From NCBI RefSeq assembly GCF_041270065.1, contig NZ_CP065958.1:6758001-6822000 (forward strand): a stretch of 64,000 nucleotides of DNA, written 5' to 3'. Every line of letters starts with the position of its first letter. The first letter of the stretch is position 1. Shown here piece by piece: positions 75-31,333 of the stretch. The notes under the pieces were generated by a model. The model saw only the letters and a list, made by a program, of their open reading frames with translations. It was not told the DNA's origin and ran no database searches. Made by a program: the position numbers and the translations under genes. The DNA comes from Streptomyces fradiae (GTDB lineage Bacteria > Actinomycetota > Actinomycetes > Streptomycetales > Streptomycetaceae).

Positions 75-1499
75 GTGCCGTCGATGCTCGATGCCGTCGT
101 CGTGGGGGCGGGGCCCAACGGACTGACCGCAGCCGTGGAGCTCGCCCGGCGTGGCTTCTCGGTCGCCGTCTTCGAGGCGAAGCCGACGGTCGGCGGGGGC
201 GCCCGCACCGAGGAGCTCACCCTGCCCGGCTTCCGCCACGACCCCTGCTCGGCCGTGCACCCGCTCGGCATCGGCTCGCCGGTCTTCAACACCATGCCGC
301 TGGACCGGCACGGCCTGGAGTGGCTGCACCCCGAGCTGCCCATGGCCCACCCCTGGGACGACGGCACCGCGGCCGTCCTCTCCCGCTCCGTCGCCGAGAC
401 CGCGGCCTCCCTCGGCCCGCGCGACGCCGGCGCCTACCGGCGGCTCGTCACACCGTTCCTGCCGCACTGGGACAGCCTGTTCCGGGACTTCATGCAGCTG
501 CCGCTCACCGCGCTGCCGCGCGACCCGGTCACCCTCGCCCGGTTCGGCCTCACCGGAGTGCAGCCGGCCACGTGGCTGCTGCGCCGCTTCCGCGACGAGA
601 AGGCCCGCGGGCTGTTCGCCGGGCTCGTCGGCCATGTCATCGCGCCGCTCGGCGGCCTCGCCACCAGCGCCGTCGGCCTGGTCTTCGCGATCGCCGCGCA
701 CGCGGCCGGCTGGCCGCTGCCCCGGGGCGGCTCCCAGTCGATCTCCGACGCCCTCGCCGGGTATCTGAAGGAGCTCGGCGGCGCCGTCCACACCGACTTC
801 GAGGTCAAGCGGCTCGACGACCTCCCGCCGGCCCGCGCCTATGTCTTCGACACCTCGCCCACCGCCCTGGCCCGGATCGCCGGCCTCGGCGCCACCTACG
901 ACGGCTACCGCTACGGCGCCGCCGCGTTCAAGATCGACTACGCCCTGTCCGGGCCCGTGCCGTGGACCAGCGAGGCCGCCCGCCGGGCCGGCACCGTCCA
1001 GATCGGCCCCACCATGGGCGAGATCGACACCGCCCTCCACCAGGCCTCCGGCGGCACCGCCCCCGACACCCCGTTCCTCATCACCGCCCAGCCCAGCCTG
1101 GTGGACCCGAGCCGCGCCCCCGAGGGCAAGCACGTCTTCTGGGCCTACGGCCATGTCCCCAACGGCTGGCGCGGCGACCTCACCGACGCCATCGAGCGGC
1201 AGATCGAACGCTTCGCGCCCGGCTTCCGCGATCTGATCCTGGCCCGCGCCACCGCGGGACCGCCCGAACTCGCCGCCCGCAACCCCAACTACGTCGGCGG
1301 CGACATCGCCTGCGGCGCCGCCCGCGGACTCCAGCTCGTGTTGCGCCCCAAGCTCTCCCTGTTCCCGTACCACACCCGGCACCCGGCGGTCTTCCTCTGT
1401 TCCTCCGCCACCCCGCCCGGCCCGGGCGTCCACGGCATGTCCGGCCACAACGCCGCCAAGGCCGTCTGGCGCCGGCTGCGCACGCCCGGCGGGCGTTGA
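75..1499 (+). CDS. NAD(P)/FAD-dependent oxidoreductase, phytoene-desaturase-like
   Basis: The 474-aa protein opens with a Rossmann FAD-binding motif, GAGPNG at residues 11-16, followed by an acidic residue that ends the second strand (VFEA) and the family-typical GGGARTEE stretch. The C-terminus ([14 protein letters not shown]) is the usual FAD-contacting end of the CrtI/PYROXD2-like amine-oxidase superfamily. The protein is probably cytosolic, and its substrate cannot be read from the sequence. No carotenoid genes lie nearby, so a carotenoid role is not supported. The GTG at 75 is preferred because GAAGGAG lies 6 nt upstream; an in-frame ATG at 84 is the alternative. The next gene follows after 52 bp on the same strand. 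Confidence 0.88.
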
Positions 1500-1551
1500 G
1501 CCCTCTCGTAATCCGGATGTCCCGGCGGCCCGGCGGCGCGAGGATGGAGCC

Positions 1552-2097
1552 ATGAGCACCGCATCCGACCGACCCGACGGATCCGACCGTCCCGAGATCG
1601 TTCTCGTCCGTGGCGACATCACCGAGCAGGACGCCGACGTCATCGTCAACGCCGCCAACTCCTCGCTCCTCGGCGGCGGCGGAGTCGACGGCGCGATCCA
1701 CCGCAAGGGCGGCCCCGCCATCCTCGACGCCTGCCGCACGCTCCGCGCCGGCCACTACGGCCGCGGCCTCCCCACCGGCGAGGCCGTCGCCACCACCGCC
1801 GGAAACCTCGCCGCCCAGTGGGTCGTCCACACCGTCGGCCCGGTCCACAGCGCCCAGGAGGACCGCTCAGAGCAGCTCGCCTCCTGCTACCGCGAATCCC
1901 TGCGCGTGGCCGACGCGTTGGGCGCCGAGACCGTCGCCTTCCCGGCCATCTCCACCGGCATCTACGGCTGGCCGATGGACGACGGCGCCCGTATCGCCGT
2001 CGAGACGGTCCGGGCCTCGCACCCGTCCTCGGTGCGGGAGGTCCGCTTCGTGCTGTACGACGCGGCCGCGTACGCCGAGTTCGAGGCCGCGCTCTAG
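1552..2097 (+). CDS. Macrodomain O-acetyl-ADP-ribose deacetylase
   Basis: This 181-aa single-domain protein has the macrodomain signature: GDIT at residues 21-24, NAAN at 33-36 and a glycine loop ending GGGGVD at 41-46, plus the second ribose/phosphate loop around PAISTGIYGWP. Family members of the YmdB type bind ADP-ribose and deacetylate O-acetyl-ADP-ribose, the by-product of sirtuins; some also remove mono-ADP-ribose. A sirtuin, a NUDIX hydrolase and an ADP-ribosylglycohydrolase lie within the next 6 kb, which fits ADP-ribose turnover. The stop codon overlaps the stop of the convergent VOC gene by 4 bases. Confidence 0.9.
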   Translation: MSTASDRPDGSDRPEIVLVRGDITEQDADVIVNAANSSLLGGGGVDGAIHRKGGPAILDACRTLRAGHYGRGLPTGEAVATTAGNLAAQWVVHTVGPVHSAQEDRSEQLASCYRESLRVADALGAETVAFPAISTGIYGWPMDDGARIAVETVRASHPSSVREVRFVLYDAAAYAEFEAAL

Positions 2098-2549
2098 GAG
2101 GCCGGGGCGGCGGGGGAGGCCGGGCGCCCGTACCCCGGGCGGTCCGAGTGGTCCTTGCCGTGCCCGGCCCACGAGTAGAGGTGAAGCACCAGGCCGTCGG
2201 GGTCGCTGAAGACGAGCAGCCAGCCGATGCTCGCCTCGATGACCGGCGAGTGCTCGACGCCAAGGGCGTCCAGATGGGCCGCCCACGCCTCGGCGTCCGC
2301 GCGGTCCCGGATCGCGAAGGACACCGGATCGAAGCCCTCGCAGCCCCGGGCCGCCTCCGGGTTCTCCCGCAGGGCGACGAGCGTGCCGTCCAGGCCGGGC
2401 ATCGTGCCCCCGACCCCGCGCACCACGCCCTCGTCGTCCGGGAACTCGATCGTGGTCCGGAAGCCGAGGACCCGGCCGTACCAGTCGAGGGAGCGCGGGA
2501 GGTCGGTGACGGGGATCTTCACATGGTGGATTCCGGCGAGTTCCGGCAT
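2094..2549 (-). CDS. VOC family (glyoxalase/bleomycin-resistance fold) protein
   Basis: The 151-aa protein begins IHHVKIPVTDLPRSLDWYGRVLGF, the first beta-alpha-beta module of the vicinal oxygen chelate fold, with the metal-ligand histidine in IHHV. A second module (SFAIRDRADAEAWAAHLDALGV and the following FSDPDG segment) carries the typical DPDG turn before the last strand. VOC proteins include lyases, dioxygenases and binding-type resistance proteins, so the function is not predictable. It diverges from the TetR gene at 2654, which may regulate it. The 3' ends of this gene and the macrodomain gene overlap. Confidence 0.82.
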   Translation of the reverse strand: MPELAGIHHVKIPVTDLPRSLDWYGRVLGFRTTIEFPDDEGVVRGVGGTMPGLDGTLVALRENPEAARGCEGFDPVSFAIRDRADAEAWAAHLDALGVEHSPVIEASIGWLLVFSDPDGLVLHLYSWAGHGKDHSDRPGYGRPASPAAPAS

Positions 2550-2585
2550 GGCGGGCCTCCTCGGCCTCGGGCCTTCTCGGGCCTC

Positions 2586-2646
2586 GGGTCCCTTCGGACC
2601 CGATTCATTTCGTCGCAGTGACGCTGCGGTGAATTGCTTCTAGACT
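2586..2646 (+). promoter_or_regulatory. TetR promoter with palindrome; hairpin in the VOC leader
   Basis: In the 104-bp divergent space, TAGACT (2641-2646) sits 7 bases before the TetR ATG at 2654, a leaderless-type arrangement. GTGACG 17 bases upstream of it can act as the -35. That -35 lies within an inverted repeat, CGCAG (2614-2618) and CTGCG (2624-2628), a plausible autoregulatory operator. A separate hairpin, GGGTCC/GGACCC (2586-2601), lies in the VOC 5' region. These are sequence observations; the regulatory roles are inferred. Confidence 0.45.
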
Positions 2647-2653
2647 GCTCCTC

Positions 2654-3379
2654 ATGACAGACCCCGTCAAGACGGACCCGCCGGATCCGGGCGCGGACCC
2701 CGGTAAACGGCCCTACGCCTCGCCGAAGCGCGCCGCGGCCGCGGCCCGGACCCGTGCGCGGATCCGGGAGGCCGCGGGCCGGCTGTTCGTCGAGCAGGGG
2801 TACGCGGCGACCCGGATGCGGGAGGTCGCCCGGGCCGCCGGGGTGGGGGAGCGGACCCTCTACGACGCCTTCCCGACGAAGGCCGCGCTGTTCGGCCACA
2901 CCCTCGGGGTCGCCACCGTCGGCGACGAGGAGCCGGTGGCCGTCGCGGACCGCCCGGAGTTCACGGAGCTCGGTGGCGAGACCGACCCGGCCGAGACCGT
3001 CGACGCCCTGATCGCCCGCACCGCGGAGCTGCTCGACCGGGCCGGCGACCTGATCATGGTGAGCGTGGAGGCGGCCGGCGCCGATCCCGACATGCGGGCC
3101 GCCGCCGACGCCGGGGCCGCCGCCACCCACGCCGTCTACCTCCGGCTCACCACCGCCCTGCACGCCCGGGGCGCGCTGCGCCCCGGCCTCGACCCCGCCC
3201 GGGCGGCCGACATCCTCTTCGCCGTGGTCTCCCCGCACGTCCACCAGCTCCTGCGGCGCCATCGCGGCTGGTCGGCCGCCGCGTACCGGGACTGGCTGCG
3301 CGAGCTCGTCGCCGCCCAGCTGCTCGCGCCGGAACAGCGGACGGGCTCGGAACACCGGCCGGGCGGCGGCCCACGTTGA
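2654..3379 (+). CDS. TetR/AcrR family transcriptional regulator
   Basis: The 241-aa protein has an N-terminal TetR DNA-binding domain at about residues 30-85, with a helix-turn-helix in the RMREVARAAGVGERTLYDAF stretch. The remainder is an all-helical ligand-binding region with the usual low similarity. Two acidic/proline-rich segments before the HTH look disordered. It diverges from the VOC-protein gene, and a palindrome overlaps its own -35, so it probably controls itself and perhaps the VOC gene. The ligand is unknown. Confidence 0.88.
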   Translation: MTDPVKTDPPDPGADPGKRPYASPKRAAAAARTRARIREAAGRLFVEQGYAATRMREVARAAGVGERTLYDAFPTKAALFGHTLGVATVGDEEPVAVADRPEFTELGGETDPAETVDALIARTAELLDRAGDLIMVSVEAAGADPDMRAAADAGAAATHAVYLRLTTALHARGALRPGLDPARAADILFAVVSPHVHQLLRRHRGWSAAAYRDWLRELVAAQLLAPEQRTGSEHRPGGGPR

Positions 3380-3430
3380 TGTCGTTTTCCTGCCAGCCCG
3401 GCCCGCCCGCGATCACCCATCCTTGAAGGC

Positions 3431-4924
3431 ATGCACACCGACACCGAGCGCTGCGTGCGGGCCGTCCAGTCGAAGGACGCCCGCTTCGACGGCGTCTTCT
3501 TCACCGCCGTCCGCACCACTCGGATCTACTGCCGGCCCAGTTGCCCCGCCGTGCCGCCCAAGGCGCAGAACATGGAGTTCCACCCCACCGCCGCGTCCTG
3601 CCAGCGGGCCGGCTACCGGGCCTGCAAGCGCTGCCGGCCCGACACCAGCCCCGGCTCGTCCGCCTGGCACGCCCGCGCCGACGCCGTGGCCCGCGCCGTA
3701 CGGCTCATCCAGGACGGCATCGTCGACCGCGAGGGCGTTCCCGGGCTCGCCGCCCGGCTCGGCTACTCCACCCGCCAGATCGAGCGCCAGCTGCTCGCCG
3801 AACTCGGCGCCGGACCCCTCGCCCTCGCCCGCGCCCAGCGCGCCCAGACCGCCCGGCTGCTCATCGAGACCACCCCGCTGCCCATGGCCGAGATCGCCTT
3901 CGCCGCCGGTTTCGCCTCGATCCGCACCTTCAACGACACCGTCCGCGAGGTCTTCGCCCTCACCCCCGGCGAGCTGCGCGCCCGCGCCACCCGCCCCCGC
4001 AAGGCGCCCGCCCCCGCCCCGGCTCCCGCCCCGGCCCCCGGGACGATCACCCTGCGGCTGCCGTTCCGCGCCCCGCTCGAACCCTCCAACCTCTTCGGCC
4101 ACCTCGCCGCCACCGCCGTGCCGGGCGTCGAGGAATGGCGCGACGGCGCCTACCGCAGAACCCTCGCCCTGCCGTACGGACACGGCATCGTCGCCCTCGC
4201 CTCGCGCGCCGACCACGTGCTGTGCCGGCTCTCGCTCACCGACCACCGCGACCTCACCCACGCCATCAGCCGCTGCCGCCGGCTGCTCGACCTCGACGCC
4301 GACCCCGTCGCCGTCGACGGGCAGTTGCGCGCGGACCCGCTGCTCGCGCCGCTCGTCGACGCCGCGCCCGGCCGACGGGTCCCGCGTACGGTCGACGCCG
4401 CCGAGTTCGCCGTCCGCGCCGTCCTGGGCCAGCAGGTGTCCACCGCCGCCGCCCGTACCCACGCCGCCCGCCTGGTCACCGCGCACGGCGTGCCCGTCGA
4501 CGACCCCGAGGGCGGCCTCACCCACCTCTTCCCGACCCCCGCCGCACTCGCCGGGCTCGACCCCGAGACCCTCGCGCTGCCCCGCAGCCGCCGCACCACC
4601 CTGCTCACCCTCGTCACCGCCCTCGCCGACGGCAGCCTCGCGCTCGGGCCGGAGACCGACTGGACCGAGGCCCGCGAACGGCTGCGCGCCCTGCCCGGCT
4701 TCGGCCCCTGGACCACCGAGGTCATCGCCATGCGGGCGCTCGGCGACCCGGACGCCTTCCTCCCCGGCGACCTCGGCATCCGGCGTGCCGCCGAGGGCCT
4801 CGGCCTGCCCGCCGCCCCGGCCGCGCTCACCGCCCGCGCCGCACGCTGGCGGCCCTGGCGCGCCTACGCCGTCCAGTACCTGTGGGCCACCGACAGCCAC
4901 CCCATCAACCACCTGCCCGCGTAA
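3431..4924 (+). CDS. Ada-type regulator fused to AlkA 3-methyladenine DNA glycosylase
   Basis: Three modules are visible in this 497-aa protein. First is an Ada zinc-binding domain with cysteines C34, C38, C65 and C68 (YCRPSC and ACKRC), which in Ada accepts methyl groups from DNA phosphotriesters. Next is an AraC-type double HTH at about residues 85-185. Last is an AlkA domain (about 205-497) with the helix-hairpin-helix around LPGFGPWTTEV and the catalytic-aspartate region FLPGDLGIR. The protein is therefore both a methylation sensor/activator and a base-excision glycosylase for alkylated purines. It lacks the Ada C-terminal alkyltransferase domain, which is supplied by the next gene 11 bp downstream. 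Confidence 0.93.
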   Translation: MHTDTERCVRAVQSKDARFDGVFFTAVRTTRIYCRPSCPAVPPKAQNMEFHPTAASCQRAGYRACKRCRPDTSPGSSAWHARADAVARAVRLIQDGIVDREGVPGLAARLGYSTRQIERQLLAELGAGPLALARAQRAQTARLLIETTPLPMAEIAFAAGFASIRTFNDTVREVFALTPGELRARATRPRKAPAPAPAPAPAPGTITLRLPFRAPLEPSNLFGHLAATAVPGVEEWRDGAYRRTLALPYGHGIVALASRADHVLCRLSLTDHRDLTHAISRCRRLLDLDADPVAVDGQLRADPLLAPLVDAAPGRRVPRTVDAAEFAVRAVLGQQVSTAAARTHAARLVTAHGVPVDDPEGGLTHLFPTPAALAGLDPETLALPRSRRTTLLTLVTALADGSLALGPETDWTEARERLRALPGFGPWTTEVIAMRALGDPDAFLPGDLGIRRAAEGLGLPAAPAALTARAARWRPWRAYAVQYLWATDSHPINHLPA

Positions 4925-4935
4925 GGAACCCGCTC

Positions 4936-5436
4936 ATGCCCACCGTGACGCACACGGTCGTGGACAGCCCCTACGACCTGCTGACCCTCGTCGCCGTCGA
5001 CGGCGTCCTCAGCCGTATGTACATGACCGACCAGCGGCACCGTCCACCGGAGGAGACCTTCGGCGCGCCCGACCCGCGCCCCTTCACGGAGGCGATGCGC
5101 CAGCTCGACGCGTACTTCGCGGGCGAGCTCACCGAGTTCGACCTGCCGTTGCACCTCGTCGGAACCCCGTTCCAGCTGCGCGTCTGGGAACAGCTCCGGC
5201 TGATCCCGTACGGGGAGACCCGGACCTACGGCGAACTCGCCGACGCCCTCGGCAGCCCCGGCGCCTCCCGCGCGGTCGGCCTCGCGAACGGCAAGAACCC
5301 GGTCACCATCATCGTCCCCTGCCACCGGGTCATCGGCTCCGGCGGCAGCCTCACCGGCTACGGCGGCGGCCTCGCCCGCAAGCAGCGCCTGCTCGCCTTC
5401 GAATCGGGCGCCGCCGAACCCGACGCCCTGTTCTGA
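4936..5436 (+). CDS. ogt: Methylated-DNA--[protein]-cysteine S-methyltransferase
   Basis: The 166-aa protein carries the active-site motif PCHRVIGSGG with the methyl-accepting cysteine. The DNA-binding wing is at YGETRTYGELA, and RAVGLANGKNP is the typical arginine-finger region. It repairs O6-methylguanine and O4-methylthymine by suicide transfer. The ATG at 4936 follows the AlkA fusion stop by 11 bp with AAGGA in the gap, so the two repair genes are almost certainly co-transcribed. The length matches the Ogt family. Confidence 0.94.
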   Translation: MPTVTHTVVDSPYDLLTLVAVDGVLSRMYMTDQRHRPPEETFGAPDPRPFTEAMRQLDAYFAGELTEFDLPLHLVGTPFQLRVWEQLRLIPYGETRTYGELADALGSPGASRAVGLANGKNPVTIIVPCHRVIGSGGSLTGYGGGLARKQRLLAFESGAAEPDALF

Positions 5437-8180: not shown

Positions 8181-9854
8181 TCACTCCTCGCCGTCCCCGC
8201 TCGTACGGGACCGCGCCGCCCGGCGCAGCCGGTGGTGCCGGGCCGCGCCCTGCTCGGTGATCGCCTCGCCGACCATCGCCCGCACCGCGTCCCGGACGCC
8301 GTGCAGCGCGTGGTGCCGGGCCGGGCCCGCACCCGGGTCCTCGCGGAGCTCCTTCAGAAGCGCCCAGCACAGGGCCAGCATGACGAGGACGAAGGGAAGT
8401 GCCACCAGGATGGTCGCCGTCTGGAGCGAGTCCAGACCGCCGACGACGAGCAGGACGGCGGCGACGCAGGCCATCAGCACGCCCCAGGTCACCACCAGCC
8501 AGGTCGGCGGGTGCAGCGAGCCGTGGCTGGTGAGCGAGCCCATCACCAGGGAGGCCGAGTCCGCGCTGGTCACGAAATAGGTCATCACCAGGAGCATCGC
8601 GATGTACGAGGTGACGGTGCCGATCGGCAGCCCGTCCAGCATGGCGAACAGCGAGGCCTCCACGCCGTCCGCCACGGCACCCGCCAGATCCTCCTGGCCC
8701 GTCGACTGGAGCCGGATCGCGGTGCCGCCCATCACGCAGAACCAGAGCACCGTGGCGCCCGAAGGGACGAGCAGCACCCCGATGAGGAACTCCCGTACGG
8801 TCCGGCCGTGCGAGATCCGGGCGATGAAGGTGCCGACGAACGGCGCCCAGGACAGCCACCACGCCCAGTAGAAGATCGTCCACGCCCCCAGCCACGTCCG
8901 GTCCGAGAAGGCGCCCGTGCGGGTCGCCAGCGGCAGCAGCTGATGGAGGTAGCCGCCCAGCGAGGCCGGGATGGTGTCCAGAACGTACACGGTCGGACCG
9001 AGAAGGAAGACGAAGACCATCAGGCACGCGGCGAGCACGATGTTCACCGTGGACAGCCACTTCACACCCTTGTGCAGCCCGGAGAAGGCGGAGAGCACGA
9101 AGGCCGCCGAGAGCGACACGATGATGACCAGCTCGGTCGCCGTGGAGTCCTCGACTCCCGTGGTGATGTTCAGGCCCTTCGCCACCTGGAGCGCGCCCAG
9201 GCCCAGGCTGGTCGCCGTGCCGAACACCGTCGCGAAGACGGCCAGCAGGTCGATCGCCTTGCCGGGCCAGGACCGTGCCCGACGCTCGCCCATCAGCGGC
9301 ACGAACGCGGCGCTGAGCAGGTTTCCGCGCCCCTTGCGGAAGCCCGCGTAGGCCAGGGCGAGGCCCGCGATGCCGTAGATCGCCCAGGGAGTGAGCGTCC
9401 AGTGGAAGAACGAGTACTCCATCGCGAGCAGGGCCGCCCCGCCCGACTGGGGCTGCACGCCGCTCCCCGGCGGCGGGTCGAGGAAGTGCTGAAGCGGTTC
9501 GCCCACGCCGTAGAACATCAGCCCGATGCCCATGCCGGCGCTGAACATCATGGCGATCCACGCCAGGTTGGTGAACTCCGGCTCCGAGTCGTCCGCGCCC
9601 AGCCGGATCCGGCCGAAGCGGCTGAGCGCGATCAGCACGCACAGGACCAGGAAGACGTCCGCGGCGACGACGAACATCCAGGCGAAGTTGTCGAGGACCC
9701 AGCCGAGGGCGGTGTCGGAGGCATCGGCGAACGAGTCCTTGCCGAGGGCCGCCCAGGCGACGACGGCGACGACGGCCGCCATGCCGATCCCGATGACCTT
9801 CGGGTCGGGCCGAGGTTTCTGTCCGCCGCTTTGATCGATCAGTTCCGTACTCAC
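8181..9854 (-). CDS. BCCT family (betaine/carnitine/choline) transporter
   Basis: This 557-aa integral membrane protein has about 12 hydrophobic segments. It carries the BCCT fingerprints: the glycine-rich GMGIGLMFYGVGEP in TM3, and a tryptophan/aromatic-rich substrate segment FYWAWWLSWAPFVGTF around TM8. Family members import quaternary amines, usually glycine betaine or choline, with Na+ or H+. The GTG start (VSTELIDQ) was chosen because the reading frame upstream runs antisense to the glycerate kinase gene and lacks coding character. The charged C-terminal tail ends in acidic residues. It diverges from glycerate kinase. Confidence 0.92.
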   Translation of the reverse strand: MSTELIDQSGGQKPRPDPKVIGIGMAAVVAVVAWAALGKDSFADASDTALGWVLDNFAWMFVVAADVFLVLCVLIALSRFGRIRLGADDSEPEFTNLAWIAMMFSAGMGIGLMFYGVGEPLQHFLDPPPGSGVQPQSGGAALLAMEYSFFHWTLTPWAIYGIAGLALAYAGFRKGRGNLLSAAFVPLMGERRARSWPGKAIDLLAVFATVFGTATSLGLGALQVAKGLNITTGVEDSTATELVIIVSLSAAFVLSAFSGLHKGVKWLSTVNIVLAACLMVFVFLLGPTVYVLDTIPASLGGYLHQLLPLATRTGAFSDRTWLGAWTIFYWAWWLSWAPFVGTFIARISHGRTVREFLIGVLLVPSGATVLWFCVMGGTAIRLQSTGQEDLAGAVADGVEASLFAMLDGLPIGTVTSYIAMLLVMTYFVTSADSASLVMGSLTSHGSLHPPTWLVVTWGVLMACVAAVLLVVGGLDSLQTATILVALPFVLVMLALCWALLKELREDPGAGPARHHALHGVRDAVRAMVGEAITEQGAARHHRLRRAARSRTSGDGEE

Positions 9855-24308: not shown

Positions 24309-24388
24309 CCACCGGGGCGCTCGCGCGACGGCGTCCGTACGGGCGCAGCGTGAGCGGTACGGTCACGGCGGGCCCGGAGCGCCGGGCC

Positions 24389-24394
24389 TACCGT
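24389..24394 (+). promoter_or_regulatory. -10-like element before a short leader ORF
   Basis: TACCGT lies 7 bases before an ATG at 24402 that opens a 17-codon reading frame. The layout is the same as at other apparently leaderless genes in this window. Confidence 0.35.
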
Positions 24395-24401
24395 CCCGGC
24401 C

Positions 24402-24455
24402 ATGGAAGAGAACTCCCTGCCCGGCGCCGCACGGCCGCCGGGCCCCCGAAGATGA
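24402..24455 (+). CDS. Possible 17-aa leader peptide ORF before signal peptidase
   Basis: A reading frame beginning ATGGAAGAG encodes MEENSLPGAARPPGPRR, and its TGA (24453-24455) overlaps the signal peptidase ATG (24452) as ATGA. It starts right after a -10-like TACCGT. This would couple signal peptidase translation to a leaderless upstream ORF. Chance cannot be excluded in DNA this GC-rich. Confidence 0.3.
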   Translation: MEENSLPGAARPPGPRR

Positions 24456-25087
24456 GCGCCCGCCGGGCGGTGCCCGCCGCCCTCACCGGGCTCGTCCTGC
24501 TCTGCCTCCTCGCGGGCGTCGCGGTGACCGCCCTCAGCGTGAAGGTCGAGGGATCGAGCATGGCGCCCACCCTGCACGACGGCGACCGGCTGCTCCCGGT
24601 GCCCGGCTCGGCCGGCGAGGTGCACCGCTTCGACGTCGTCCTGCTGCGCTCGCCGCGGCAGAACGCGCTCCTGGTCAAACGGGTCATCGGCCTGCCCGGC
24701 GACCGGATCGCCATCGTGTCCACCGCCGAGGACCCCTTCCAGGTGCTCCTCCAGGAACAGGGCCGGGGCCCCGTCTACCGTGTGACGGCACGTCAGTGGA
24801 CCGGCCAGGCGCGGCGGACCGGGAACTGCTGCACCGCCGACGGCGCCCGCTCGGCCCGGCCGGAGCTGCGCACGGTGCCGGCCGGGTCCTTCTTCTATCT
24901 CGGCGACAACCCCGATCTCTCCGACGACTCCCGTGCCTACGGCTGGGGCGAGATCGCCCGGGTCGAGGGGCGGGTCGGTCTGCGCGGCGGCCTCGTGCCG
25001 ACCTCGCCGGAGCTCGGGGCGCCGCCGGTCCTGGAGGAGGGGTGGGGGAGCGGCCTGGCGGGCGGGGGGCCGGGTCCGGGACCCTGA
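24452..25087 (+). CDS. Signal peptidase I (S26 family)
   Basis: The 211-aa protein has one N-terminal transmembrane segment (about residues 8-28) and the S26 boxes: SSMAPTLHDGD with the catalytic serine, LLVKRVIGLPGD with the general-base lysine, and the GDNPDLSDDSRAYGW box near the C-terminus. It would cleave signal peptides of Sec and Tat substrates at the outer membrane face. The C-terminal tail is glycine-rich. Unlike the multi-gene lep cluster I recall in Streptomyces, this copy stands alone. The start is set by the ATGA overlap; an in-frame upstream ATG at 24350 is the alternative. Confidence 0.88.
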   Translation: MSARRAVPAALTGLVLLCLLAGVAVTALSVKVEGSSMAPTLHDGDRLLPVPGSAGEVHRFDVVLLRSPRQNALLVKRVIGLPGDRIAIVSTAEDPFQVLLQEQGRGPVYRVTARQWTGQARRTGNCCTADGARSARPELRTVPAGSFFYLGDNPDLSDDSRAYGWGEIARVEGRVGLRGGLVPTSPELGAPPVLEEGWGSGLAGGGPGPGP

Positions 25088-25094
25088 GCGGGCC

Positions 25095-25697
25095 TCAGCC
25101 CGGGACGCGCTCCTCGCCCGTGCTCAGCGCGATCCGCAGGAAGACGTCGGCGATCCGCCCGGCCGACTCCTGCGGCGAGCCCGCCGCCTGCACGATGTGG
25201 CTGGCCGTCAGGCGTACGGCGGTGTCGACCGCGAGCTCGCGCGCGACCGGGTCCACGGCGGGCCAGGCCTCGGCCACGTACGCGCCGGCCATCGCCGACG
25301 CGGTGGCGAACGCCGCCTGGGAGCGGGTCGTCAGATAGGGGAGCAGTCCGTCGTCCCGGGCGCTCGTGAGCATCGCCTTCACCAGCGGATTGCGCGCGGC
25401 CAGGGTGAGGGTGAAGTCCGCCGCGGCGGTGACGGCCGCCCGCAGGTCGTCCCGGTGCGCGTCGAGGGCCGCCTGGATGCCGACCAGGCAGCGCTCCAGC
25501 TCGCGCTGGAACAGGGCCTCGCCGACCGCCTCCTTGGACGGGAACTCCGAGTACAGCGTCTGCCGGCTCACGCCCACGGCGCTCGCGATGTGCGCCATGC
25601 GCAGCTTCTCGAAACCGCGGTCCGCGACGAGTTCGTACGCGGCGTCCAACAGGCGCTCGCGCAGCAGCGTGCGCACCGTCTCCCTGAACCTGGCCAT
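25095..25697 (-). CDS. TetR family regulator divergent from the DUF6230 operon
   Basis: This 200-aa TetR protein has its HTH near residues 28-60 (LRMAHIASAVGVSRQTLYSEF), with YSEFPSKEA the usual end of the DNA-binding domain. The C-terminal helices are alanine-rich. It is read away from the DUF6230/DUF6114 operon, and the 168-bp space between them contains several repeats and a perfect 18-bp palindrome. It is therefore the probable local regulator of that operon. Confidence 0.88.
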   Translation of the reverse strand: MARFRETVRTLLRERLLDAAYELVADRGFEKLRMAHIASAVGVSRQTLYSEFPSKEAVGEALFQRELERCLVGIQAALDAHRDDLRAAVTAAADFTLTLAARNPLVKAMLTSARDDGLLPYLTTRSQAAFATASAMAGAYVAEAWPAVDPVARELAVDTAVRLTASHIVQAAGSPQESAGRIADVFLRIALSTGEERVPG

Positions 25698-25733: not shown

Positions 25734-25811
25734 CTGTCCAGACTGTTGACACATCCTCTAATACTGTCCAATTCTCGAACAAGTGGCCACGCAGTGTCAC
25801 GGCCGTGACAC
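25734..25811. promoter_or_regulatory. Control region of the DUF6230/DUF6114 operon
   Basis: A perfect TTGACA (25746-25751) with AATTCT 18 bp later (25770-25775) gives a plausible plus-strand promoter. CTGTCCA occurs twice exactly 30 bp apart (25734-25740 and 25764-25770), flanking the -35. A perfect 18-bp palindrome, GTGTCACGGCCGTGACAC (25794-25811), lies just downstream of the predicted start site. Either element could be the binding site of the divergent TetR protein. Confidence 0.55.
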
Positions 25812-25865: not shown

Positions 25866-26573
25866 ATGTCCGAAGAGATCAGTGAGACCCGGGAGATCCG
25901 GGAGACCCGGGGCGTCACCCGCTGGCGCAGATCCGTCTTCCTGGTGGTGCCGGCCGCCGCGGCCGTCGCCGGGATGGCGACCGCGATGGTCCAGGGCGCC
26001 CTGGCCGCGAACCTCTCGCTGACCAGCGTCCCCTTCACCCTCAGCTCCAAGACGGTCGCCGCGCCCTCCGGCATCGGCGCCGTCATGCACACCGTCGACG
26101 CCGGCGGGCCCAAGGGCGCCGCCGAGGTCGGCATCGCGCAGGCCGGACTCGACGGGCTGTGCGTGCACGCGACCCAGTCGGTCAACCTCCCGGTCATCGG
26201 CAGCCTCGGCACCTGGTCGCTCAACATCTCCTCGCCGGCCGCCGCGACCCCGCTCACCCCGGACCAGCTCGCGGCGGGCGAGGGCCTCCAGGCCCGCAAG
26301 CTCATCCTGGACGCCCAGGCCCTCAAGGCGTCCAAGGCGACCCTCGACGCCACGGACACCACGCCCAACGTGATCGGTGCCGCCGCCGACGGCGCCGGCA
26401 TCAAGGGCACCGGCATCAACGACGGTTCGGCGGGCCAGTTCGGCCTCGACGCGACCGGCGGACGCACCACGATCGAGAGCCTGAAGGCCGACGCCAACGG
26501 CGCGACCATCGCCGGCGCGATCACCCTGCCGGACCTCGCCATCGGCATCGCCCACGGCGAGACGACCTGCTGA
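25866..26573 (+). CDS. DUF6230 family protein, copy 1
   Basis: The 235-aa protein has a short cytosolic, arginine-containing start, one hydrophobic segment (about residues 22-48, ending MVQGALAANLS) and an exported domain rich in short beta strands. It resembles the other two DUF6230 proteins of this operon in the GALAAN-type segment end, a GLC motif about residue 98 and a cysteine at the very C-terminus (GETTC), so a conserved disulfide is likely. DUF6230 members were, as I recall, once labelled cholesterol esterases, but no catalytic triad is visible. Function unknown. First gene of the operon, with GGAGAAGG upstream. Confidence 0.8.
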   Translation: MSEEISETREIRETRGVTRWRRSVFLVVPAAAAVAGMATAMVQGALAANLSLTSVPFTLSSKTVAAPSGIGAVMHTVDAGGPKGAAEVGIAQAGLDGLCVHATQSVNLPVIGSLGTWSLNISSPAAATPLTPDQLAAGEGLQARKLILDAQALKASKATLDATDTTPNVIGAAADGAGIKGTGINDGSAGQFGLDATGGRTTIESLKADANGATIAGAITLPDLAIGIAHGETTC

Positions 26574-26678
26574 TTCCGTACCTCCGCACCCCCCACGGGT
26601 ACGGGGCGCCGCCCGCACCGGACGCGGCGCCCCGGACCACCGACTCCCCCCCGGCCCCCTCACCGTTGCGAGGTCCGT

Positions 26679-27173
26679 ATGACGCACGACCCGGAGCCCG
26701 AAAGCGCAGCACCCGTGTCCGAGCCGGGAGCCGCGCCCGCACCCGTACCGCGCGCGGGCGGTCCGCTGCCGCGCGCCCGGCTCGCCTTCCGGCGCTGGCG
26801 CCGCACCCGGCCCTTCTGGGCGGCGCTGTGGACCGGACTCGGCGGCTTCGTGATCCTCTTCCTGCCGCTCGCGCCGCTCGGCAAGATCCTCCAGATCGGC
26901 GTCGGCGGCATCGCGGGCATGGCCGGCGGAGTGCTCCTGATGGCGATGGCACTGCTGATCCTCTTCCTGCCCAGCCAGCGCCACACCGCGGGCGTCATCG
27001 CGGTGATCGCCGGCGTCGCCTCCTTCCCGCTGTCCAACCTCGGCGGCCTGTTCCTCGGCATGTTCCTCGCCGTGCTCGGCGGCGCCATGGCCTTCTCCTG
27101 GCTGCCCGAGAAGCCGGCCCGCCGGCGCCGCGGCCGTCCCGCCCCCGCCCGGGAAGGGAGCGCCGTCGCATGA
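26679..27173 (+). CDS. DUF6114 family membrane protein, copy 1
   Basis: The 164-aa protein has a proline-rich cytosolic N-terminus (about 45 residues), the motif RTRPFW, and four hydrophobic segments between about residues 48 and 145. The last two are linked through SNLGGLFLGM. The tail is basic. The same RTRPFW and SNLGG motifs recur in the second DUF6114 protein here. Function is unknown, but pairing with DUF6230 suggests it anchors or exports that protein. It starts 105 bp after copy 1 of DUF6230; its stop overlaps the next start (ATGA). Confidence 0.8.
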   Translation: MTHDPEPESAAPVSEPGAAPAPVPRAGGPLPRARLAFRRWRRTRPFWAALWTGLGGFVILFLPLAPLGKILQIGVGGIAGMAGGVLLMAMALLILFLPSQRHTAGVIAVIAGVASFPLSNLGGLFLGMFLAVLGGAMAFSWLPEKPARRRRGRPAPAREGSAVA

Positions 27174-27931
27174 GCGCGTACCCCAGCCCCCGCGAGACCG
27201 CCCGCGCACTGGCCCGGGCCGGCGCCCGCTGGAACGCCGAGATGCTCGCCGAGGCCGCCGACGGCACCCGCCGCGGCACCCGGTGGGGACGCGGCGCCTT
27301 CGCCCTCGTCCCGGCCGCGCTCGCCGTCGGCGCGCTCGGCGGCGCCATGTCGCAGGGCGCCCTCGCCGCCAACTTCAGCGTCACCGGCCAGCCCTTCACC
27401 CTCACCTCCAACGGAGTCTCCGGCACCGGCTTCGGCGCCATCGTCAACACCCCGCCGGTCGGAAAGCCCGACGGCACCTCCACCGCCACCACCGGCATGG
27501 CCCGGGTCGGCTTCGCCCAGGCCGGGCTCGCCGGACTGTGCGGCATCGTCCATCAGTCGATCGCCGGCCTGCCGTACTCCCTGCTCCTGACCGCCGGCCA
27601 GCAGGTGACCACAGCCCCGCCCGCCACCTTCACCACCGACATCGACGCCTCCAACCTCTACATCCAGGCCACCGAACTCCAGTCGTACGGACCGACCACC
27701 CTGCAGAACGCGGTCATCGGCCAGTCCGCCGACCAGGTCCTCGTCGACGGCCGACCGCTCACCGGCGCCGTGCCCGGCGGCTTCGGCCTCGGCTCGGCCG
27801 GCGGCCCCGGCGGCAGCTCCGTCAATCTGCACGGCCTCAACGCCACCGCGTACGACGCCGAGATCGCCGGCGCCCTCGTGCTGCCCCAGCTGGACATCCG
27901 CATCGTCGGCGGAACGGCGACGTCATGCTGA
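27170..27931 (+). CDS. DUF6230 family protein, copy 2
   Basis: This 253-aa protein has a longer cytosolic start (about 40 residues) than copy 1, then the same layout: a hydrophobic segment ending MSQGALAANFS, a GLC motif near residue 123 and a terminal cysteine (GTATSC). The exported part is rich in threonine, glycine and small residues, consistent with a beta-sandwich. The ATG overlaps the preceding DUF6114 stop by 4 bases, and the 3' end overlaps the next gene by 7 bases. Function unknown. Confidence 0.8.
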   Translation: MSAYPSPRETARALARAGARWNAEMLAEAADGTRRGTRWGRGAFALVPAALAVGALGGAMSQGALAANFSVTGQPFTLTSNGVSGTGFGAIVNTPPVGKPDGTSTATTGMARVGFAQAGLAGLCGIVHQSIAGLPYSLLLTAGQQVTTAPPATFTTDIDASNLYIQATELQSYGPTTLQNAVIGQSADQVLVDGRPLTGAVPGGFGLGSAGGPGGSSVNLHGLNATAYDAEIAGALVLPQLDIRIVGGTATSC

Positions 27932-28314
27932 GCGACGCCCGGCGCTGGTTCCGGGCCTTCCGGCGCACCCGGCCGTTCTGGGGCGGCCTCTGGCTGGTCG
28001 CGGGCGGCTGGACGGTGCTCAAGTTCTCGCTCAGCTCGGTGCAGTTGATCGTGAACACCGGCTTCGGGGGAGTGGCCGGCTACCTCACCGGCGGCGGCAT
28101 GATCCTGTGCGGGCTCATCCCGATCGCCGCACCCCGCCAGCGCTACACCTTCGGTCTCATCGGCACCGTGCTCGCGGTGGTCTCGCTGGTCGTGTCCAAC
28201 CTGGGCGGCTTCCTGGTGGGGATGGCCCTCGGCGTGCTGGGCGGTGCGATGACGGTCGGCTGGGGCCCCAAGCGCCCGGGCCGCCCCGCCCGCCGCCTTG
28301 CGGAGGAGAGCTGA
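27925..28314 (+). CDS. DUF6114 family membrane protein, copy 2
   Basis: The 129-aa protein is a compact version of copy 1: RTRPFW near residue 15, four hydrophobic segments, SNLGGFLVGM and a short basic tail. It lacks the long N-terminal extension of copy 1. The start overlaps the DUF6230 copy 2 stop by 7 bases and its stop shares one base with the next ATG (TGATG), so translation is coupled. Function unknown. Confidence 0.8.
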   Translation: MLSDARRWFRAFRRTRPFWGGLWLVAGGWTVLKFSLSSVQLIVNTGFGGVAGYLTGGGMILCGLIPIAAPRQRYTFGLIGTVLAVVSLVVSNLGGFLVGMALGVLGGAMTVGWGPKRPGRPARRLAEES

Positions 28315-28910
28315 TGCGCCGGACACTCGCCGTCGCCGCTGTGCTGCTCGTCGCCGTCGCCACGGCCGTCCTGCCGGACCGGGCCGGCAACGCCGCCCCG
28401 CGTGCCGCGGCGGAGGTCGTCCCGCTGGGCGTGCCCTTCCTCCCGTCCCCGTACCCCCTCGACGTACGGATCGACAGCCTGGTCGCCACCTCCCTGACCG
28501 CGGAGCTCGGCGTCACCATCCGTCTGTCCGACGGCTCGACGGTGCAGACGAACAAGTACACCTTCACCAAGCTCAAGGTCAGCCGCCACATGAGGGTGAC
28601 CCAGCGCGCCGACGGCCACACCCTGACCATCGACGTGCCGAACCAGGGCTCGCTCGGCGGCTACGACAGCGCGGGCAACCCCGAGACCACCACCATGTGG
28701 GGCACGATCGACAACATCTGCGTCCTGCTCATCGCCTGCCACATCCAGGACCTGCTCAACTTCTTCGGTCAGTTCATCCCGCTCACCTCCGGCGCCACCG
28801 ACTTCCGCGGCACCATCTACGCGATCCGCACCGTCGACGACCACGCCGCGCTCAACTCCACCGACAACCCCGTCCACCTGCCCGGCACGATCACGGTGAC
28901 CAGCCCATGA
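28314..28910 (+). CDS. Secreted protein of unknown function in the DUF6230/DUF6114 operon
   Basis: The 198-aa protein has a clear Sec signal peptide (MRRTLAVAAVLLVAVATAVL, cleavage probably after an alanine near residue 28) and no further membrane segment. The mature part has alternating hydrophobic residues typical of beta strands, two close cysteines in ICVLLIACHIQDLL, and ends soon after. I do not recognise a family. GGAGGAGAG lies upstream, and the stop overlaps the next start (ATGA). It is probably an extracellular partner of the DUF6230 proteins. Confidence 0.7.
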   Translation: MRRTLAVAAVLLVAVATAVLPDRAGNAAPRAAAEVVPLGVPFLPSPYPLDVRIDSLVATSLTAELGVTIRLSDGSTVQTNKYTFTKLKVSRHMRVTQRADGHTLTIDVPNQGSLGGYDSAGNPETTTMWGTIDNICVLLIACHIQDLLNFFGQFIPLTSGATDFRGTIYAIRTVDDHAALNSTDNPVHLPGTITVTSP

Positions 28911-29617
28911 CCGCCGCCCCCGGCCTCGAGGAGGGGCGCACGCACTGGCGGCGCTCGCTCGCCGTCGCCCTGCCCGCCCTGCTCGCGGCCGGCTCCCTGG
29001 CCGCCGCGATGACCGGCGGCGCGCTCGCCGTCGACCTCCGCATCCAGGACCGGCCGGTGGACTTCACCACCAGCAGTCTGTACGGCACCCAGTACGGCGC
29101 CGCCGTCGTCGACCAGACCGTGGTGCGGCCCGACGGCACCACCGGCTCGCTGCGCGTGCTGCGCATGGGCTTCGCGGACGGGGTCATCAACGGGTTGTGT
29201 TTGAGCCAGCGCCAGCAGATCGCCGGCGTGACCTACACCCTGCTCCTCACCCTCGGCGACACCGACCCCGGCACCTGGGAGATCCGCACCAAGAACACGG
29301 TCCTGGACCTGCGCGACGCCACCGGCGAGCTGGACATGGACGGCATCGTCGACCTCAACGTCAACGGCGCCGACGTGAAGACCGTCAAGGACGCCACCGG
29401 CGCCTACCTCCCCAACCCGCTGGACAGCCCGCAGCACCGCTTCGGCATCCAGGCCCGCTACGCCAAGTTCGACGCCATCACCGGCACCGCCCAGGACATG
29501 CAGATCCCCGGTCTGCTCACCACCCCGAGACTGAGCGTCGCCGTGAAGCCCGGCACGGTCGCCTGCCCGAAGCCCGCCGCCCCCACCGGCACCCCCGGGA
29601 CGCCCGGCGCCCCCTAG
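28907..29617 (+). CDS. DUF6230 family protein, copy 3
   Basis: This 236-aa protein is the third DUF6230 copy: cytosolic start, hydrophobic segment ending MTGGALAVDLR (the LAAN of the other copies reads LAVD), NGLC at about residue 98 and a cysteine in the C-terminal GTVACPKP, followed by a proline/threonine tail (PTGTPGTPGAP). The tail is absent from copies 1 and 2 and could be a wall-spanning linker. Last gene of the operon; it converges on the secreted peptidase gene 24 bp away. Confidence 0.8.
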   Translation: MTAAPGLEEGRTHWRRSLAVALPALLAAGSLAAAMTGGALAVDLRIQDRPVDFTTSSLYGTQYGAAVVDQTVVRPDGTTGSLRVLRMGFADGVINGLCLSQRQQIAGVTYTLLLTLGDTDPGTWEIRTKNTVLDLRDATGELDMDGIVDLNVNGADVKTVKDATGAYLPNPLDSPQHRFGIQARYAKFDAITGTAQDMQIPGLLTTPRLSVAVKPGTVACPKPAAPTGTPGTPGAP

Positions 29618-29641: not shown

Positions 29642-31240
29642 TCAGCGGACGTGGCCGAGCAGTCCGTGCAGGGTCATGCCCGCCTCGGGAGCCGCGCCGC
29701 GGGTCTCGGCGGGCTTGGCGGGCTCCGGCTCCGGGAGCGTCTCGCAGACCGCGTCCGCCTCCGCGCCGGCGTTCGCGGCGCGCGGCACCTTGCCGGTGGA
29801 GAGGTAGGCGGTGAGGTGCTCGTCCATGCAGTCGTTGCCGGCCAGCGTCACGCCGTGGTTGCCGCCGCCCTCCTCGACGACCAGGCTGGAGCCCCGCACC
29901 ATCCGGTGCAGCGCGACCCCGCCCTCGTACGGCGTGGCGGCGTCGTCGGTGGCCTGGAGGATCAGCGTGGGCGGCACCTGGTCGTTGTGCACGTCCGGCG
30001 GGGACAGCGGCTCGACCGGCCAGAAGGCGCACGGCGCGTTGTACCAGGCGTTGTTCCAGGTGGAGAACGGCGCCTTGGCGTGGGTCTCCCAGTTGTCCTT
30101 GCGCCACACGCTCCAGTCGCGCGGCCAGGCCGCGTCCCGGCACTGCACGCTCGCGTAGACCGAGTAGCCGTTCTCGGCCGACGCGTCCGCCGCCGCGTAG
30201 TCCTCGTACGCCTTCACCAGCGGTGCGCTGTCCTGGTCGTTGACGTAGGCGGCGAAGGCGGTCGCGAGCCGCGGCCAGTAGCCGTTGTAGTAGCCGCCCG
30301 GCAGATACGTGTCCTCCAGCTCGCCCGGCCCGACCTTGCCGCCCGCCGGCGTGGTCGCCAGCTCGTCGCGCATCCGGTACCAGGCCGCCTCGACCGCCGT
30401 CGGGTCGGTGCCGAGCCGGTAGGTCGCGTCGTTGCGGGCCACCCAGGCGGCGAAGTCCTTGTGCCGGGTGTCGAAGGCGTAGTCCTGCGAGAGGTTGTCC
30501 TCGTACCAGACGCCGTGCGGGTTGACCACGGAGTCCAGGGCCATCCGCCGGACCCGCTCGGGGTAGAGCCGCGCGTACACGGCGCCGAGGTAGGTGCCGT
30601 AGGAGTAGCCGAGGTAGTTGAGTCTCGGCGCGCCGAGGGCGGCGCGGATGGAGTCCATGTCGCGGGCGGTGGAGACGGTGTCGATGTACGGCAGCACGTC
30701 GGCGTACTTGTCGCCGCAGGCCTTCGCGAACGCCTGGGCCCGCTCGACACCGGCCCGTTCGCCCTCGGCGCCGTGCGGCACGGAGTCCGGGCGCACCGGA
30801 TCGAAGTGGCCGGGGCGGCAGTTCAGGGCGGGCTCGCTCTTGCCGACGCCGCGCGGGTCGAAGCCGATGACGTCGTACTGCGCGGCCAGCTTCGGCGGCA
30901 GCGAGGCCGCGACGTAACCGGCCATCCCGCGACCGCTGCCGCCCGGTCCGCCGGGGTTGACGAGCAGCGGGCCCTGGAAGATCTTCGCCGTGTGCGCGAC
31001 CCGGGTCAGGGCGAGCGAGATGCTCCGGCCGGCCGGGTCGTCGTGGTTGAGCGGCACCCGGAGGGTGGCGCACTGGAGCTTCGGATATGCCCTGGTCGGG
31101 CAGTCGGTCCAGGTGAGCGGGGCCACGGGACGGGTGGTCGGGCCGGGCTCGCTCGCGGCGGTGGCGGGCGCGGGCAGGACGGTGACCGTCCCGGCGACCA
31201 GCGCCCCAGCGGCGATCAGTTTTCCTGCGCGGGGTTTCAT
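29642..31240 (-). CDS. Secreted alpha/beta hydrolase, tripeptidyl aminopeptidase type
   Basis: The 532-aa protein begins with a signal peptide (MKPRAGKLIAAGALVAGTVTVLP). NPGGPGGSG is the oxyanion region of the Tap/SlpD/SlpE family, GFDPRGVGKS follows, and the nucleophile elbow is in YLGYSYGTYLGAVYA. The C-terminal TAP-like domain carries QATDDAATPYEGG with the catalytic aspartate and GNHGVTLAG with the histidine. It should remove tripeptides or other short peptides outside the cell. The start at 31240 was chosen for the signal peptide. It converges on the DUF6230 operon. Confidence 0.9.
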   Translation of the reverse strand: MKPRAGKLIAAGALVAGTVTVLPAPATAASEPGPTTRPVAPLTWTDCPTRAYPKLQCATLRVPLNHDDPAGRSISLALTRVAHTAKIFQGPLLVNPGGPGGSGRGMAGYVAASLPPKLAAQYDVIGFDPRGVGKSEPALNCRPGHFDPVRPDSVPHGAEGERAGVERAQAFAKACGDKYADVLPYIDTVSTARDMDSIRAALGAPRLNYLGYSYGTYLGAVYARLYPERVRRMALDSVVNPHGVWYEDNLSQDYAFDTRHKDFAAWVARNDATYRLGTDPTAVEAAWYRMRDELATTPAGGKVGPGELEDTYLPGGYYNGYWPRLATAFAAYVNDQDSAPLVKAYEDYAAADASAENGYSVYASVQCRDAAWPRDWSVWRKDNWETHAKAPFSTWNNAWYNAPCAFWPVEPLSPPDVHNDQVPPTLILQATDDAATPYEGGVALHRMVRGSSLVVEEGGGNHGVTLAGNDCMDEHLTAYLSTGKVPRAANAGAEADAVCETLPEPEPAKPAETRGAAPEAGMTLHGLLGHVR

Positions 31241-31333
31241 ACGGCCTCCGTGCCCCGTGGCGGGCGCGAAAGGACCGTTTCGGTGGAGAGTTGACCCGTT
31301 CGGCGTACGTGACACGCCGTCAGGGACCTCGCT

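Follow-up and report, generated by a model that had tools for sequence, protein, structure and literature searches.

What does a compact cluster of six genes in Streptomyces fradiae export, and do these six genes make up the whole of their unit? The cluster, an operon whose genes we call A to F, lies in a 64,000-nucleotide stretch of contig NZ_CP065958.1 (positions 6,758,001 to 6,822,000), referred to here as the window. A preliminary description of the window had listed three exported DUF6230 proteins (A, C and F), two DUF6114 membrane proteins (B and D) and one other secreted protein (E). The unit is larger than these six genes, with a signal peptidase gene to be added. As comparison of loci across families indicates, it is very probably an old, co-inherited export unit comprising the six genes and the linked peptidase. 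For its function, our preferred reading, to which we assign a probability of roughly 0.5, is that the unit deals with hydrophobic compounds at the outer surface of the cell membrane.

The operon and its linked signal peptidase

The products of A, C and F score above the curated Pfam cut-off for DUF6230 (PF19741, 27.5 bits) and those of B and D above that for DUF6114 (PF19609, 27.9 bits); E has no Pfam match at an expectation value of 1. A gap of 105 bases separates A from B, and the following genes overlap by 4 (B/C), 7 (C/D), 1 (D/E) and 4 (E/F) bases, so that gene coordinates and Pfam agree with the inventory and overlaps first described. The shared motifs are also as first described. Both B and D contain RTRPFW and SNLGG, and A, C and F have in common the GALA sequence, a cysteine in a GLC motif and a C-terminal cysteine (residues 99 and 235 in A, 124 and 253 in C, 98 and 220 in F). 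GALA, where the hydrophobic segment ends, and two cysteines, one central and the other C-terminal, do not vary in an 11-row alignment, and we infer one disulfide closing each DUF6230 domain. Although nearly invariant across 100 aligned rows, GALA was rejected as a universal mark, being absent from the copies at two loci (L070 and L071) and from A of a third (L072).

The product of the linked gene is a bacterial signal peptidase I, scoring above the 47-bit cut-off of TIGR02227 (Table 1). To TIGR02228, which we take to be the SipW-like type of peptidase, it scores 21.8 bits against a cut-off of 51.85 bits. It carries the motifs SSMAPT and KRVIGLPGD; among the linked peptidases, SM.PT is found in 33 of 34 rows, the exception being the fragmented L139 sequence, and the KR motif in all 34. 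We assume that these motifs provide the serine and the lysine, respectively, of signal peptidase function. Seven signal peptidases I exceed the TIGR02227 cut-off in the S. fradiae genome, the window gene among them.

The peptidase gene adjoins every complete six-gene locus (34 of 34), in at least four families. The complete set of six genes in order is found at 29 of 31 named loci with a relative of F, and the peptidase at precisely those 29; L142 is without A, B and the peptidase, and the record of L147 starts inside the operon. The six genes and the peptidase also occur together in the window, at L070 (family f26), L071 (f22) and L072 (f13) and, within the genus, at L076 and L077; L076 and L134 are apparently one locus and enter the total of 34 a single time. 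The named holders comprise Streptomyces, Streptacidiphilus jiangxiensis and an Actinocorallia. Families f1, f13, f22 and f26 are distinct, and the Actinocorallia (Thermomonosporaceae) possibly represents a fifth. Because the identical gene order recurs in other families, the operon is not a chance arrangement. Within the 29 complete named loci, the peptidase gene is fragmented in L139 and L154; several operon genes are fragmented there too, reflecting either sequencing error or decay.

A peptidase tree was built with rows from 34 of the 37 linked loci and from 9 of the 16 others. All 34 linked rows group in a single clade (100/98); outside it stand the 9 rows of other peptidases (6 distinct), which come from the S. 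fradiae genome and genomes G026, G039 and G046 and are mostly partial. Long branches occur on this tree. Judged by its conserved linkage, the signal peptidase I belongs to the unit and appears dedicated to it. Among loci without the six-gene order, only L073 has a peptidase fragment, a weak test as many of these loci span just 1.5 kb per side. No peptidase was found near the surveyed short cassettes, that is, DUF6230-DUF6114 pairs often accompanied by a third secreted gene, an absence that the 9.5-kb stretches test fairly but the 3.5-kb ones do not. L073 itself (3882-4966) holds a lone DUF6230 gene beside the peptidase fragment, with DUF6114 not found, and is perhaps a decayed six-gene locus.

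Gene pairing, lineages and the probable kinship of E

DUF6230 and DUF6114 form a strict gene pair, as their proposed partnership in the preliminary description had implied: 124 of 132 surveyed DUF6230 domains are followed by a DUF6114 gene on the same strand, and the two families are not mostly apart in other genomes. The eight unpaired copies are six terminal F copies, one at a contig edge (L055) and that of the aberrant locus L073. In turn, each of the 124 DUF6114 domains follows a DUF6230, at loci chosen by DUF6230, and a search of 100 genomes of the phylum that started from DUF6114 returned 13 hits in 8 genomes, all beside DUF6230 or a distant relative. These pairing counts omit L035, which is the same place as L116.

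DUF6230 was found in 66 of 296 genomes sampled from the class (19 of 105 genera), and in 61 of 61 sampled from the genus; the 14 control genomes lack it. Few genomes have the six-gene version, E being present in 6 of 199 genus genomes. In the short cassette, the third secreted gene is not a constant member, since only 38 of 56 loci with room for it have one. The S. fradiae genome has two further DUF6230-DUF6114 pairs besides the operon. Near the pair at L009 is a methylmalonyl-CoA mutase gene (Pfam), together with thioredoxin-like and pyruvate kinase genes read from the sequence. In S. coelicolor, by the locus names in the available part of PMC7494193, SCO5420 lies near pyk2 (SCO5423); as its neighbours match this setting, we take L009 to be of the SCO5420 type. 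The SCO5420-type cassette has the same two families in the same order as the operon, and a domain of its third secreted gene is related to DUF6230 and to E, whereas the window operon has three DUF6230 genes, two DUF6114 genes, E and the linked signal peptidase. At 9053-10347 of L009, the third gene is seemingly interrupted where the frame shifts in a run of C around 9372-9383, either an assembly error or a real break. A UvrD/HelR-like helicase gene is convergent with the short cassette at 13 loci (6488-8323 of L090 and 12 similar ones).

When 68 DUF6230 rows are placed on a tree, three changes, which is the minimum, account for the labels A, C, F and single. The F rows form one clade (100/98), and neither the A nor the C rows do; support for some deep forks is weak, long branches meet, and the A rows of L070-L072 are placed beside single-copy rows. 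We read A, C and F as old, separate lineages. Either the triplication would predate the split of the holder families, or the operon would have moved as a block.

Gene E probably encodes a distant DUF6230 relative, because the profile of the C-terminal domain of the short-cassette third gene matches both. This domain of about 150 residues aligns with the DUF6230 profile over 133 columns with a score of 34.9 (reversed controls at most 14.1, best of 40 column shuffles 14.4) and with the E profile over 54 columns with a score of 33.5 (reversed controls at most 16.1, best shuffle 20.6), E aligning with its first half only. Direct membership of E in DUF6230 was rejected: the direct profile score of 22.8 is weak, and the link stands only by way of the third-gene domain. 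At L070 and L071, a secreted-looking gene in the E position is not recognised by the E profile. In a sequence search of solved structures, the DUF6230 and DUF6114 profiles had no match at an expectation value of 1, and E gave three weak, unrelated rows, the best at 0.1. The model of F has strands of 22-28 residues and, by DSSP, no helix except the signal segment, with otherwise three-residue turns. That of E (mean predicted local distance difference test score, pLDDT, 79.1) consists mainly of strands, its only helices being the signal helix and a short one.

The probable control region and feature coordinates

In 28 aligned rows of the intergenic region between the TetR gene and A, TTGACAC and TGTCCAATTCTC are kept at a level of at least 90% and the adjacent GA at 70-90%; the bases after TGTCCAATTCTC up to ACA are largely kept. 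The rows represent 27 loci (L076 and L134 being one), with L158 omitted as too long and L157 because its TetR gene is on the other strand. Positions 25746-25781 are a probable promoter of A overlapped by a probable TetR operator. A relative of the window TetR lies near 27 of the 31 named loci, and a search of the surveyed loci found none near L070, L071, L072, L152 and L156; the divergent TetR gene is present in most, not all, six-gene loci. TetR genes also stand by simpler relatives of the operon, one adjoining the pair of the distant family f51 at L185 and a TetR-like one, read from the sequence, beside L010. The preliminary description had placed the operon under the divergent TetR as a surface assembly or sensing system. 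The conserved promoter- and operator-like stretch strengthens the first half of that proposal; the assembly or sensing role stays conjectural.

Table 1. Features of the operon and its surroundings, with positions counted from the first letter of the window.
Feature	Positions	Strand	Evidence
Signal peptidase I	24350-25087	+	TIGR02227 90.0 bits; Pfam S26 89.7 bits; conserved linkage
TetR-type regulator, divergent	25095-25697	-	Pfam TetR_N and TetR_C_35
Probable promoter of A, TTGACA	25746-25751	+	Conserved in aligned intergenic rows
Probable TetR operator TGTCCAATTCTCGAACA, overlapping the A promoter	25765-25781	+	Conservation; predicted role
Perfect 18-base palindrome GTGTCACGGCCGTGACAC	25794-25811		Not kept in other aligned rows
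A: DUF6230, exported	25866-26573	+	PF19741 45.1 bits; GALA at residues 44-47; A lineage on the tree
B: DUF6114 membrane protein	26679-27173	+	PF19609 108.9 bits; four hydrophobic segments in a 19-residue hydropathy scan
C: DUF6230, exported	27170-27931	+	PF19741 70.9 bits; GALA at residues 63-66; C lineage
D: DUF6114 membrane protein	27925-28314	+	PF19609 112.2 bits; only two hydrophobic segments above the threshold of the same scan
E: secreted, probable distant DUF6230 relative	28314-28910	+	Profile match to the short-cassette third-gene domain, 33.5
F: DUF6230, exported	28907-29617	+	PF19741 68.4 bits; GALA at residues 38-41; F clade 100/98; model with mean pLDDT 80.8

Convergent with the operon, at 29642-31315 of the window, is a gene for a TAP-like alpha/beta hydrolase (Pfam), of which no close relative is listed at 37 other loci.

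Proposed lipid handling and its alternatives

The preliminary description knew of no described function, although one has been claimed for relatives. Five of 63 F relatives carry the name cholesterol esterase, and SCO5420 is reported in the available part of PMC7494193 to be up almost 37-fold on Tween 40 relative to glucose. A third lead comes from Geobacillus thermoleovorans P21 (201 residues) and P16 (196 residues), which the accessible text of PMC2676291 describes as insoluble membrane proteins induced by long alkanes. There, their N-termini, determined by Edman sequencing, are said to resemble the S. lavendulae cholesterol esterase, with negligible similarity over the whole length; the paper cites AB047106 and AB049820 for the two Geobacillus sequences. 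P21 and P16 share with the operon's proteins that they are exported and membrane-bound, and, compared here by N-termini and peptides alone, their N-termini resemble the DUF6230 relatives of f51, a family in another class of the phylum with five genomes.

In f51, the gene before DUF6114 encodes a distant DUF6230 protein, found in five of five genomes. These proteins score 100.2 against the DUF6230 profile (best control shuffle 15.8), and the L185 copy reaches 39.6 bits to PF19741. Against the f51 proteins, the published N-termini P21-N and P16-N score 55 and 47, above all 1648 background frames, and the P21-37 peptide scores 37, equalled by one background frame. The N-terminal matches start directly after ALA/AVA, or one residue inside, which suggests that this boundary marks the signal cutting site in f51. 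L185 also encodes, at 1006-3540, a long protein with M23 peptidase and transglycosylase domains whose N-terminal part is weakly DUF6230-like in a profile search; similar frames occur in L186 and L187.

In the gene neighbourhoods, 14 of 57 loci have a cholesterol-oxidase homologue as a neighbour, against none of 40 control windows, which were hand-picked in 12 genomes. Pooled, lipid genes occur at 24 of 57 loci and in 7 of 40 control windows (Fisher p 0.015), the families having been picked after they were sighted near the loci and the loci being non-independent, both of which bias this figure towards the lipid reading. A general lipid-gene neighbourhood was rejected, as lipid genes other than cholesterol oxidase are not clearly enriched: FadB stands at 0 of 57 against 1 of 40 and desaturase at 1 of 57 against 0 of 40.

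Several points weigh against a role in lipid handling. The evidence for it comes from relatives, not from the window operon, and the placing of the DUF6230-named cholesterol esterases in the six-gene operon is putative. All 14 cholesterol-oxidase neighbours fall in one family (f15), and the one homologue scanned by NCBIfam has 557.8 bits to NF058674, below the cut-off of 850. Acyl-CoA ligase, at 6 of 57 loci and 5 of 40 controls, shows no enrichment, and acyl-CoA dehydrogenase, at 4 of 57 and 1 of 40, hardly any. According to the same accessible text of PMC2676291, palmitic acid, tributyrin and trimyristin did not induce P21 and P16; three of the six P21/P16 peptides obtained from it do not stand out against f51, and the N-termini match DUF6230 proper weakly, with 8 and 15 of 1648 background frames scoring at least as high as the best. 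In S. venezuelae, which has an E homologue (P0158), the putative cholesterol esterase Sven_0933 is up 11.7-fold on nitrogen starvation (PMC3087709), which is not a lipid signal. Sven_0933 is at most a candidate gene of the six-gene operon, as no available record ties its locus tag to it.

In the mechanism that we propose for lipid handling, A, C, E and F would cross the membrane by the Sec route; the peptidase of the operon would cleave them, behind GALA in the case of A, C and F, and a disulfide would close the DUF6230 domains. The mature proteins would remain at the membrane together with DUF6114 and bind fatty-acyl or sterol esters, fatty acids or hydrocarbons, which would be passed on for uptake or breakdown. 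The short cassette would do the same job with fewer proteins and general peptidases.

The names and the induction of relatives would also suit a secreted enzyme that hydrolyses esters, akin to the actinomycete cholesterol esterases, having an unconventional active site and held at the membrane by DUF6114. Two entries known here from reference lists only add to this case, one on a cholesterol esterase gene of Streptomyces (Nishimura and Sugiyama 1994), the other on a novel family from actinomycetes (Xiang 2007). So does residue conservation, as 58 SCO5420-type sequences keep Ser57, Ser61, Ser110, Asp141 and Glu219 at the 97% level, with Ser110, Asp141 and Glu219 as candidate active-site residues, and, across 100 rows, Ser100, Asp134 and Asp149 reach at least 90%. 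No histidine, however, reaches 97% in the 58 sequences, no position of the 11-row alignment with A, C and F holds an invariant serine, histidine or acid (Asp134 comes close), no Pfam hydrolase family matches, and the predicted F fold is free of helix beyond the signal segment and short turns. We therefore consider such a hydrolase unlikely. A classical alpha/beta-hydrolase esterase or lipase was rejected, since the sequences lack its Ser-His-Asp triad and the F model, by DSSP, its mixed alpha/beta fold. Because there is no conserved histidine and the F model is nearly all beta, capture of lipids seems to us preferable to a classical esterase, a call that we regard as evenly poised.

By analogy, the nearest known layout appears to be that of tapA-sipW-tasA in Bacillus subtilis, where the gene of a specialised signal peptidase accompanies those of secreted proteins (available part of PMC6334530). 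A dedicated peptidase linked to secreted proteins is common to both, which invites the view that it frees the beta-rich A, C, E and F to assemble outside the cell as a surface fibre or coat, anchored or regulated by DUF6114. The several related subunits indicated by profile comparisons and the long strands of the F model would fit. Yet the secreted proteins are unrelated by Pfam, A, C, E and F having no TasA-type family at an expectation value of 1, the peptidase is of the TIGR02227 and not the TIGR02228 type, and DUF6114 partners are present. A fibre would also leave unexplained the Tween and alkane induction of relatives and the single-copy cassette in all 61 genus genomes, and we hold it to be rather improbable. 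Sensing at the cell surface, with the signal sent to TetR or by way of DUF6114, could account for the divergent TetR with its conserved predicted operator and for the regulators at L185 and L010. TetR is outside the core, the search having found no relative of it near five of the surveyed loci, and DUF6114 has no signalling domain by Pfam, which makes sensing a very distant prospect.

We return, then, to lipid handling. In its fullest form, which we put forward tentatively and regard as somewhat doubtful, four related beta-sheet proteins and two DUF6114 proteins would make up a surface conduit for lipids or hydrocarbons with a dedicated peptidase, unrelated to SipW-TasA, whose simpler relatives would include the Streptomyces "cholesterol esterases" and Geobacillus P21 and P16. 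No study of the operon was found in the open-licence literature, in which DUF6230 appears in a promoter table and DUF6114 has no match; the conserved export unit with its linked peptidase is undescribed in the open-licence literature searched. Two families of unknown function thus become one conserved unit with a testable export step. Three threads, namely the actinomycete cholesterol esterase, Tween-induced SCO5420 and alkane-induced P21/P16, are joined, and the esterase label on some genome records is brought into question. If the lipid reading is true, the unit would be a route by which single-membrane actinobacteria may gather hydrophobic food or shield themselves against it.

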